Shown here one piece after another: positions 5,346 to 8,336 of a stretch of DNA of 51,333 bases (its first letter is position 1; each line of letters starts with the position of its first letter). The notes below the pieces were generated by a model. The model saw only the letters and a program-made list of their open reading frames with translations. It ran no database searches and was not told where the DNA came from. This DNA is from an uncultured Spartobacteria bacterium (GTDB taxonomy: Bacteria; Verrucomicrobiota; Verrucomicrobiia; Chthoniobacterales; Chthoniobacteraceae): NCBI GenBank assembly GCA_903882875.1, contig CAIRYQ010000037.1:1-51333 (forward strand), in the 5' to 3' direction. The translations under genes were made by a program, and so were the position numbers.

Positions 5346-6770
5346 CTACTTCAGCACCTCGCGGATCGCCGCTTTCATCACGGCCTCGCTGCCGGGCGGT
5401 GTCCACGCCCAGTCGCTGAGGTTGCCGTCGTTCTCGCGGAATGCGCGATCGACCGGGATGTAGCCGGGGCCGCATTCGCCGTAGCCCATCACCACCACGA
5501 ACGCATCGGGCCGCTGCTCCTGCGCGAAGAGCTGAAACTCCACGTATGCCTCCGCCGGCAGCAGCACCAGCACGTGCGCGGGATCGAACTCGATCGCCGG
5601 CACCTCGATGCGGTGACCGCGCTTCGCGCGCTCGTACCACGCGAGGCCCATCGCGGCCTCGGCACGATCAAAGGGCTTCACGCCGCTTGCGAGGCGCTGG
5701 CGCAGGATTTCCTCCGTGTGCTTCGGCGTGTCGCGCGCGCCGAGCGGCATGAGCGCGAGCTTGAAAGTGATGCCGGTGAGCGGCGTGCGCGCGGTCTTCA
5801 CCCATGCGCGCTCCATCGCATCGCGCAGACGACCGGCGAGCACGGGTTTGTTCGCAGGATTGCCGGTGTTGTATTTTCCGGCGGTCACGTTGCCTGCGCA
5901 GCCGGTGGTGTAGATCTGCATCGCTTCGGGATGCGCCTGCTGCATGAGCGCGCGCGCTTCGCCGGGAAAATCGGCGGACACTTTTCCCGCGCCGTACGCG
6001 CTCATCGGGTGCACCGCATAGCTGTGCAGCGCGCACACAGGCGTGTCGCCATCCCAGAAGCTCAGCGTGCGCAGCCACGGATCAATGTCACCCTCGTCCG
6101 CGTCCTGCGCCTCCTTGTTCGTCGAGCGGCTGAAGCGCCCGTACGACACCGCGCCCGTGCTCGTGATGAATCGCCGGTTGCTCGCGATGCGCTCCACTTT
6201 CGCCCGGCCGGCGCCGAAATGCGTGACGCGCCTCGCGTGCGACAGGCTCTCGCGCACGGCGGCGGCGACGCGCGGGATGCACGCGTCGTTGAACTCCGGC
6301 TGGCACACGGACGCGGTCTGGATCGCGGCCTTCGGATCGGGCGGCGGGATGTTCTTCCATGCGCCGGTCGCCTCCATATCGCGCAGCAGCTTCTCCGCGT
6401 CCTCGTCCATCACCGGCGCGTCGTGGACGTGCGTGGACGTGACGATCACGCGCTGCGGCTCCGTGCCCGCGGCCTCTGCGAGTGCGCGCTTCCATTTTTC
6501 AAAAGACGTGCCGCGGATCTCACACCAGTCGAACGCCACAAGCACGAACGGCTTCTCCGCGCCCGTGAGCACGAAGCCCTTTGCAAAGAGCGGGTCCGCG
6601 ACGGACTTCGCCGGCGAGATGCCGCCGCCCATGCACGGGTGGCCGATCGGGATCGTCACGTCCACGGAGAACGTCGCGATTTTGAAGTCCGCGGCGTGCG
6701 AGGAGATCGCGGTGACGAAAACGCTGAGCAACGGCAGCAGACCGCTGAAAAGGGGAAACCGGGAGAGCAT
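5346..6770 (-). CDS. Neutral/alkaline ceramidase-like N-terminal domain protein, secreted
   Basis: A 474-residue exported protein with a signal peptide ending near SSHA. The mature start FKIATFSVDVTIPIGHPCMGGG and the later VIVTSTHVHDAP stretch, a metal-ligand-type His pair, are characteristic of the neutral/alkaline non-lysosomal ceramidase N-terminal domain. A further signature is CALHSYAVHPMSAYG, matching the second His-containing region. PVC genomes hold many copies of this domain with unknown substrates, so hydrolysis of an N-acyl lipid is only a family-level expectation. It is the first gene of the leftward five-gene run; the 354-nt region upstream contains no other gene and should hold its promoter. 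Confidence 0.82.
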   Translation of the reverse strand: MLSRFPLFSGLLPLLSVFVTAISSHAADFKIATFSVDVTIPIGHPCMGGGISPAKSVADPLFAKGFVLTGAEKPFVLVAFDWCEIRGTSFEKWKRALAEAAGTEPQRVIVTSTHVHDAPVMDEDAEKLLRDMEATGAWKNIPPPDPKAAIQTASVCQPEFNDACIPRVAAAVRESLSHARRVTHFGAGRAKVERIASNRRFITSTGAVSYGRFSRSTNKEAQDADEGDIDPWLRTLSFWDGDTPVCALHSYAVHPMSAYGAGKVSADFPGEARALMQQAHPEAMQIYTTGCAGNVTAGKYNTGNPANKPVLAGRLRDAMERAWVKTARTPLTGITFKLALMPLGARDTPKHTEEILRQRLASGVKPFDRAEAAMGLAWYERAKRGHRIEVPAIEFDPAHVLVLLPAEAYVEFQLFAQEQRPDAFVVVMGYGECGPGYIPVDRAFRENDGNLSDWAWTPPGSEAVMKAAIREVLK

Positions 6771-6889
6771 GGAAAATGTCTAGCACCGACCAATATGACG
6801 CGACAAGGCGGGTCAGCATGAGCATTTGAGGGGTGCGGAAAAATTCTGAAATTTGTTGTTGCGAAAGTCAGCCGCCTCCCTAAAGTGAC

Positions 6890-6954
6890 ACTTGTTCTGG
6901 GGGGAACAGCCGCCCTCCGGTTGCCAATCGGCACCGGGGGGCGGCACTTTTTTT
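6890..6954 (+). ncRNA. Candidate small non-coding RNA with intrinsic terminator
   Basis: A short hairpin (TGTTC/GAACA, 6894-6908) is followed at once by a long GC stem (6909-6945, 16 pairs including one G-T, one bulged T, loop AATC) and seven T residues (6948-6954). No protein gene on the plus strand ends nearby, so the terminator is not explained by a CDS. A weak promoter-like pair is TTGTTG (6857-6862) and TAAAGT (6882-6887), 19 nt apart. This would give a transcript of roughly 60-65 nt. It could instead be a terminator guarding against antisense transcription into the helicase, or an unrecognised RNA family. No match to a named RNA family was recognised. Confidence 0.4.
6909..6954 (+). terminator. 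Rho-independent terminator (plus strand)
   Basis: GCCGCCC...GGGCGGC outer stem continued by TCCGGT/ACCGGG-type pairing and an inner GCC/GGC, then seven T residues. The T-run is only on the plus strand, so it acts for rightward transcription. Confidence 0.75.
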
Positions 6955-7124
6955 GCCCTGAAACAACGGCGGTGTTTTGGTTTGGCGCGCCTTGGGGAGA
7001 CTAAGGCTAAATTCAGGAGAGCCTGCGATACGGCAGACACGGGCGTCTGCGCTTCGGTGTTCGGCATCCTCTGCTGCTCCCGATGAACTGCACCGACAGA
7101 TTGTCGGCAGCTCCACTTTTTTCC

Positions 7125-8336
7125 CTACTTCCGCCAGCCGAAGCTGTAGCCGGTGAGCGTACGGACGCCTTTGCCGGGGCCGCCGGGCTTGAGGGAGGCT
7201 TCGTCGAAAAGCGCGGTGTAGACGTATTTGAAGCTCGGGAGCTTTTTACGCTCCACCTTCGTCCCGATGTATCGCTCGATTTTGCGTACGGCGTCAATTT
7301 CCGCGGCGGTGAAAATGGTGAATGCGTCGCCGCTCTGCAGCGCGCGGCCGGTGCGGCCGATGCGGTGGACGTAGTCTTCGGGATGTTGCGGCACGTCGTA
7401 GTTGATGACGTGCGTGACGCCCGCGATGTCGAGTCCGCGCGCGGCGATGTCGGTGGCGACGAGCACTTCGTATTTGCCGCTCTTGAATCCCGCGAGGGCC
7501 TCGGTGCGTTCGCCCTGGCTGCGGTCACTGTGCATCGCGGCGACGAGGTGGTTCATTTTCGCAAGCTGGCGGGTGACCATGTCGGCGGCGACTTTCGTCT
7601 GCGTGAAGATGAGGACGCTCTTGTATTCCGTCGCCTCGAGCATCGCGAGGAGGAGATCCATTTTCTGATCCTTCGCGACGGGGTAAAGTGCGTGTGCGAC
7701 GGTATCAGCGGCGCTTTGCCTGCGGCCGATTTCGATGGCGATGGGATCGCGGAGGATCCATTTTGTCAGCGTCTCCAGTTCCGGCGGCAGCGTTGCGGAA
7801 AAGAAAAGTGTCTGCCGATCCTTCGGGGTCTGCTTGATGATTTTCGAGACGTCGGGCAGGAAACCCATGTCGAGCATGCGGTCCACTTCATCGAGCACGA
7901 GGTGGCGCACGTCGCCGAGTTTGATGGTGCCGTCCTCCATGAAATCGAGCAGCCGCCCCGGCGTGGCGACGATGATGTCCGCGCCCTTCGTGAGTTCGTC
8001 GCGCTGATTGCCGTAGCCGACGCCGCCGTGGATGATGACGGTGCGCAATCCGGTGTCCTTGCCGTATGCGGTGAAGGACTGGTGGACTTGCTGTGCAAGT
8101 TCGCGCGTGGGTTCAAGCACGAGCGCACGCAATTTCCCGTGCTCACCGAGCATGGTGAGCAGCGGAAGTGCGAATGCCGCGGTTTTTCCGGTGCCGGTCT
8201 GGGCCGAGCCCATCACATCTTTTCCCTGCAAAACGAGGGGCATCGCCTGCTCCTGGATTGGTGTGGCGTTGAGGTAGCCCTTGGCTTCGACACCGCGCAC
8301 GACCGCTTCGGACAGGCCGAACTCTTTGAAAGTCAT
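7125..8336 (-). CDS. DEAD-box RNA helicase, RhlE-like
   Basis: A 403-residue ATP-dependent RNA helicase core with little extra sequence: Walker A AQTGTGKT (45-52), PTREL, TPGRLLD, motif II DEVD (149-152), FFSAT (179-182), and HRIGRTGR (324-331). Such proteins remodel RNA in ribosome assembly, mRNA decay or cold growth. Motif II reads D-E-V-D instead of the usual D-E-A-D, with the flanking DRMLDMGFLPDV conserved; this is a mild variant and should remain active. The C-terminal tail is short and ends in GWRK. It is transcribed divergently from the membrane protein at 8417; no intrinsic terminator with T-run follows it on the minus strand. Confidence 0.93.
   Translation of the reverse strand: MTFKEFGLSEAVVRGVEAKGYLNATPIQEQAMPLVLQGKDVMGSAQTGTGKTAAFALPLLTMLGEHGKLRALVLEPTRELAQQVHQSFTAYGKDTGLRTVIIHGGVGYGNQRDELTKGADIIVATPGRLLDFMEDGTIKLGDVRHLVLDEVDRMLDMGFLPDVSKIIKQTPKDRQTLFFSATLPPELETLTKWILRDPIAIEIGRRQSAADTVAHALYPVAKDQKMDLLLAMLEATEYKSVLIFTQTKVAADMVTRQLAKMNHLVAAMHSDRSQGERTEALAGFKSGKYEVLVATDIAARGLDIAGVTHVINYDVPQHPEDYVHRIGRTGRALQSGDAFTIFTAAEIDAVRKIERYIGTKVERKKLPSFKYVYTALFDEASLKPGGPGKGVRTLTGYSFGWRK

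Follow-up and report, generated by a model that had tools for sequence, protein, structure and literature searches.

Why should a strong terminator stand on the plus strand between two genes that are both read from the minus strand? The question was raised by a 51,333-nt stretch of DNA from an uncultured Spartobacteria bacterium (the whole stretch analysed, hereafter the window), in which a preliminary description had placed a candidate orphan small RNA (sRNA) with its own promoter. Both flanking genes, encoding a 474-aa protein and a DEAD-box helicase, do read the opposite way (Table 1); for the 474-aa protein, neither Pfam nor NCBIfam gave a match at E 0.001. The two consecutive hairpins and seven T residues described for the plus strand were recovered at 6893-6954, and the fold of positions 6890-6957 has an energy of -42 kcal/mol, compared with a dinucleotide-shuffle mean of -25.4 (sd 3.2, z ~ -5; matched by 0 of 200 shuffles). 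In the window copy hairpin 2 starts directly at the 3' end of hairpin 1, with arms of 17 and 16 nt, an AATC loop (as DNA) and one bulge. A simple terminator scan of positions 5800-8000 did not pick it up; the scan requires an unbroken stem, and the loop-proximal bulge is the probable cause of the miss. It returned only two other sites, fewer than in shuffles. A weaker second hairpin followed by CACTTTTTT is found on the plus strand at 7085-7122, just past the helicase stop codon (z -1.6); it may be the end of plus-strand transcripts, or chance. Directly after the T run, GCCCTGA is present in the window (6955-6961) and in several divergent copies of the element, perhaps as a downstream DNA signal.

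Table 1. Coordinates of the element and its flanking genes in the window
Feature	Position	Strand	Remark
474-aa protein gene	5346-6770	-	Flanks the element
Sigma-70-like promoter	6859-6886	+	-35 TTGCGA (6859-6864), 16-nt spacer, -10 TAAAGT (6881-6886)
Predicted transcription start	6893	+	7 nt past the -10 box (+/- 3 nt), from promoter-hairpin distances
Hairpin 1, UGUUCU-GGGG-GGAACA (TGTTCTGGGGGGAACA)	6893-6908	+	Almost invariant across the family
Hairpin 2, GC-rich terminator stem with AAUC loop	6909-6945	+	Sequence varies in the family, pairing kept
Intrinsic-terminator tail: AC spacer, then seven U	6946-6954	+	T residues at 6948-6954
DEAD-box helicase gene	7125-8336	-	Flanks the element

The weak promoter said to lie at a fitting distance corresponds to the sigma-70-like site of Table 1, whose -10 box ends 6 nt 5' of hairpin 1. 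With 8 of 12 consensus bases it falls short of the 9 that the simple scan requires, and its score was equalled by 1 of 100 shuffles of its upstream stretch. Alignment of the window copy with those of loci L045 and L053 placed counterparts of both boxes at the same spacing (TTGCGA-16-TACAGT and TTGCGC-16-TACTCT, respectively); conservation sets in at the -35 box and ends with the T run, with little kept on either side.

The element is not alone in its genome (G000). Pattern search with the 16-mer of hairpin 1 returned five exact copies, one each on contigs C37, C47 and C80 and two on C78, and a covariance model likewise found five. Each copy has a stem-loop and then a T run 3' of the 16-mer, and four clearly different terminator stems occur among the five, the C47 copy and the second C78 copy being near-duplicates (52/60 upstream and 43/45 downstream bases alike). 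A sixth 16-mer match with one mismatch, on C107, is without terminator. DNA search of the same genome yielded three partial matches that were confined to the element and shared 61-72 bases with the window copy. Tandem copies of the RNA gene, ~195-330 bp apart, were seen at L051, L147, L157 and L168 and on contig C59 of genome G046.

Allowing at most one mismatch, the 16-mer was found in 53 of 57 relatives and 24 of 26 genera, with 1-7 matches per genome and some genomes holding a single copy. A reversed-pattern control gave 0 matches in all 57 at this stringency and one match, in G000, at two mismatches. The covariance search for the two-hairpin pattern, suggested with the preliminary description as a check, was run with a model (R1) built from 65 distinct copies. 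At E 0.01, 51 of 54 relatives were matched, of which 50 count as having genuine copies because what was matched in G029, once and at 24 bits, is a terminator that lacks hairpin 1; the other relatives without a genuine copy are G012 (88% complete) and two 0.9-Mb genomes. When R1 was applied to a class sample of 113 genomes at E 1e-4, 16 were matched: 13 of the same order (the own genome included), with best scores of at least 52.5 bits, and 3 outside it, at 28.1 bits or less. An intact hairpin 1 was found neither in these three matches nor in four other weak matches inspected. Similarly, a strict pattern ending in CTTTTT occurred in 15 of 236 genomes of the class, namely in 15/40 of the own order and 0/196 of the others. 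Scanning genome contigs for the 16-mer together with ACTTTTTT retrieved 58 stretches, 57 of them titled Spartobacteria, Chthoniobacter(-ales, -aceae) or Verrucomicrobia(-ota). The 58th, L056, comes from a MAG that bears the title Prosthecobacter debontii; the label may be wrong or the bin mixed. As far as sampled, the family defined by these sequences has so far appeared only in one order, for which the name Chthoniobacterales was taken from the titles of the relatives. A plasmid search gave no match to the element. Viral carriage was considered and rejected: three pattern matches in viral contigs scored 25.0-28.5 bits with R1, and in none did a GC-rich stem adjoin hairpin 1. At L238:573-633, in a 150-kb viral contig, an intact hairpin 1 is followed 15 nt on by a short A+U-rich stem and six T, next to the end of a minus-strand ORF; given the size of the collection, chance is likelier here than a distant relative.

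Stem 2 is held by pairing. In the 65-sequence alignment all of its counted pairs (12/12) were changed on both sides in some sequence, doubly changed cells numbered 177 (53 in shuffles), and the signal vanished when the partner was shifted along. The second loop has 3-4 nt in most copies, the gap between the two hairpins is 0-2 nt across all 65, and a T run follows stem 2 in the aligned copies. The four inner pairs of hairpin 1 were identical in 65/65 sequences, and its loop-closing pair was a weak U-G in 64 and C-G in one. Part of this invariance is built in, since a near-exact hairpin-1 pattern served to collect most copies; about a dozen strong model-found matches provide an independent test, and among these L218 is missing the 5' arm. 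The one-mismatch 16-mer matches were altered at base 1 or 6, with three exceptions. Searching 100 loci with the model gave 104 matches, of which 96 retained hairpin 1 with at most a few base changes, mostly at base 1, 6 or 16; the eight others were L218 (41.1 bits) and seven matches at 32.2 bits or less. The preliminary description had named a lack of conservation beyond the terminator stem as speaking against its reading, and this is not what was found: hairpin 1 is conserved, and the -35 and -10 boxes are kept in near relatives.

When minimum-energy folds were computed with a 14-nt leader, the four inner pairs of hairpin 1 were missing in 36 of 142 copies. TTTTCC is present in the leader of 11 of these 36 and may mask the G run in long forms of the RNA (see below); the fold of L217 loses the inner pairs because of an extra G. 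A helix closing the leader on the tail was rejected as a general feature, with at least 5 pairs in 56/142 copies compared with 117/426 control leaders and at least 3 pairs in the minimum-energy fold of 10/142 copies. Copy totals (135, 142 or 145) differ between analyses because filters and deduplication differ. Left out of both the fold (142) and the promoter (145) sets was L152 (16-mer with one mismatch, terminator not seen); L220 was left out of the promoter set and L047 of alignment A2 (T run not found). Copies less than 70 nt from a locus end and the duplicate loci L001, L005, L007 and L017-L022 were also excluded.

Across the family, the sigma-70-like score was reached by at most 20% of a copy's own shuffles in 72 of 145 copies (at most 5% in 25), and the promoters of the remaining 73 were no better than ordinary (more than 20% of shuffles as good). 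Among the 72 better promoters, the distance from the end of the -10 box to the hairpin was 5-6 nt in 23 and 16-21 nt in 44, with 5 elsewhere. A second promoter type, CTAA(C/T)-17-GTCT(T/C)A, was present in 13/145 copies (broader search pattern in 17 of 14,500 shuffles), ending 5 nt from the hairpin in 12 of the 13 and 19 nt from it in one. Upstream of the hairpin in L006, L025, L044, L047, L048, L101 and further loci, this type takes the form CTAAC-17-GTCTTA, which resembles a site for an alternative sigma factor. Since there are two promoter distances, two forms of the RNA would seem to exist: a short one, represented by the window copy, whose 5' end is at hairpin 1, and a long one that carries a ~13-nt leader. 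Leader sequences vary between copies. A longer common upstream stretch, CGTTCGGAAACGG-like, was seen in six copies (L002, L046, L049, L059, L063, L078) and may form a further small hairpin within an extended leader.

The neighbouring genes bear on whether the element belongs to one of them. In the window the copy next to the helicase gene is on the other strand from it, and in L045, from a congener, both share a strand; the promoter moved together with the flipped copy. Recurrent neighbours, mostly in soil MAGs, were a gene that we take to be of the DUF4230 type, downstream on the same strand at 33 loci (34 calls), and, upstream, presumably a YqgE/AlgH-like gene at 19 and a holA-like gene at 9 loci. 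The structure is terminator-competent, and it might be merely an intrinsic terminator or 3'-UTR element of a neighbour gene, or a leader attenuator of the next one; a leader role is possible where the DUF4230-type gene follows, since it does so on the same strand. However, in the window both neighbours lie opposite, and the upstream neighbour points away in 46 of the 82 copies having an upstream call (87 rows; crude gene calls, with the window's own row miscalled). Promoters also stand at preferred distances, and hairpin 1 is better conserved than the terminator. That the element is only a terminator or leader of a neighbour is, in our judgement, very improbable.

Three further rivals we rate lower still. 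The dyad TGTTC-N6-GAACA might be read as a LexA-like DNA operator instead of an RNA hairpin, its half-sites being the same as those of Verrucomicrobia LexA, for which the motif is reportedly TGTTC-N4-GAACA. Yet the spacing is N6, not N4, the central TGGGGG is itself invariant, and the gap between dyad and terminator stem stays at 0-2 nt while the promoter distance takes two values; an operator would be a most surprising answer. A dispersed repeat of the REP or MITE kind would explain five similar copies, the agreement of C47 and the second C78 copy over promoter and stem, the flip near the helicase gene and the tandem copies in some genomes. Against it, the window copy has just 61-72 bases in common with the others, stems differ with compensation, promoters are retained and many MAGs show identical neighbours, and we give it equally little weight. 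CsrB-type RNAs work as multicopy GGA hairpins, and hairpin 1 could serve through its GGA as a sponge for CsrA. CsrA was, however, absent in 15 of 19 genomes, including all 10 searched of the own genus, and 13 of these 15 carry the RNA; this rules out a CsrA sponge as a general mechanism, and we regard the idea as next to negligible.

We conclude from these comparisons that the element is very probably a stand-alone sRNA gene, one of five siblings in its genome and part of a family of one order. By sequence it has the makings of a sibling (multicopy) sRNA: several copies per genome with one common module, and a promoter and terminator of its own. The orphan sRNA proposed at the outset is supported by the five own-genome copies and by the genuine ones in 50/54 relatives. 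Its two-hairpin reading held up; the preliminary description had seen neither the multicopy family nor hairpin 1 as its invariant part.

What would such an RNA do? RNA polymerase would initiate from the sigma-70-like promoter, at hairpin 1 or shortly 5' of it, and terminate at the intrinsic terminator next to that hairpin. The product would measure ~62-65 nt, nearly all of it in double-stranded form. The short form has few free bases besides loops and tail, and hairpin 1 is therefore likely the active part. Because its arms and loop are fixed and the adjoining stem drifts, the pattern fits sequence-specific recognition. Hairpin 1 may accordingly be a protein-binding handle or decoy, a tentative reading that we place a little short of an even chance: as the active end of the RNA, it would offer an RNA-binding protein a sequence-specific site in trans, and siblings under different promoters would supply the identical hairpin under different conditions. 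Hfq and ProQ were each found in 0 of 19 relatives (control detections in 5 and 1, respectively, of 14 named genomes), so the partner, if a protein, would be a different one. G042 encodes an RRM_1 RNA-binding protein whose tail is rich in glycine (L201:535-840); tblastn with this protein gave none in ~1.15 Mb of G000. One can picture an sRNA hub of an order without Hfq or ProQ, in which an RNA-binding protein, possibly of RRM type, reads the G-loop hairpin and siblings under housekeeping and alternative sigma factors act as stress-dependent decoys; this we think rather unlikely.

The main rival is a trans-acting antisense sRNA whose hairpin 1, through its G-rich loop and then its 3' arm GGGGGGAACA, would pair with a C-rich stretch in one or a few target RNAs without Hfq. 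The G loop is among the few unpaired stretches of the short form, the loop-closing U-G pair is weak, and a seed in the 3' arm would also hold the 5' arm constant. Some C-rich words occur more often in start windows than in gene bodies (CCCCCA, 4/644 vs 0/1833 in G042; 8/796 vs 4/2316 in G000). Loop seeds usually allow stem covariation, and the stem of hairpin 1, by contrast, does not covary. Nor were complementary C-rich words enriched relative to permuted words of the same composition in the start windows of 644 G042 and 796 G000 genes, a test that used crude gene calls (Shine-Dalgarno-like word in 219/644 G042 windows), covered 800 kb of G042 and 1.15 Mb of G000, and would be escaped by one conserved mRNA target. 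TTCCCCCC had 3 occurrences in 800 kb of G042, both strands counted. The G loop is also predicted to pair with the anti-Shine-Dalgarno sequence of the G042 16S end at -9.5 kcal/mol (perfect Shine-Dalgarno, -11.6), and such pairing is possible but would be unspecific. Antisense action is to our mind doubtful, though to be reckoned with. Taken as a whole, an sRNA gene with hairpin 1 as protein handle or decoy is the best explanation overall, and as a joint statement we would give it an even chance.

Rfam 15 (4227 families) had 0 matches in the window. Around the element there were 7 sub-threshold matches at E up to 10, the best being SECIS_2 at 20.9 of the required 70 bits, and the only match in 20 further copy-bearing loci was to a tRNA (L003:632-705) outside the element. 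Literature searches by sequence and for small RNAs of Chthoniobacterales, Spartobacteria or Verrucomicrobia, with subscription papers outside their scope, brought up no description among the matches listed, and the sibling-sRNA family is apparently undescribed. The LhrC RNAs of Listeria, a different phylum, are likewise multicopy sRNAs. LhrC pairs through C-rich single-stranded motifs.

By the features tested, the element is not a FopS, 6C or ANTAR-target RNA. FopS, a paralogous sRNA family of Bacteroides thetaiotaomicron, shares multicopy siblings, own promoters and an intrinsic terminator (PMC11697453). It has a conserved single-stranded 5' seed and associates with the RRM protein RbpB, whereas in the present family conservation centres on a closed hairpin, transcription of short-form copies is predicted to begin at hairpin 1, and leaders vary. 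FopS is also said there to be in Rfam (PMC11697453), and the Rfam scans gave no match on our element. The 6C RNA of Actinomycetales, named for six-base homopolymer stretches in its stem-loops and of unclear function (PMC4046766), is similarly a small RNA with a homopolymer-run stem-loop in one bacterial group; it is described there with two C-rich stem-loops in ~100 nt, in contrast to one G-rich hairpin and a variable terminator hairpin here. ANTAR-target RNAs, which are protein-bound, also consist of two neighbouring stem-loops (PMC8164766), but with hexaloops carrying A1 and G4 in both stems and a 2-25-nt linker; the loop here is GGGG (UGGGGG if the U-G pair is open) and the linker 0-2 nt in the 65-copy set.

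In the table of a 2022 review, 8 sRNAs are recorded for Planctomycetes-Verrucomicrobia-Chlamydiae, compared with 345 for Proteobacteria (PMC9029176). The hosts of the present family are soil and freshwater bacteria of a group with few recorded sRNAs, and in them a nearly fixed 16-nt hairpin may be a direct bait for an RNA-binding protein, or for a target, that would replace the role of Hfq or ProQ.
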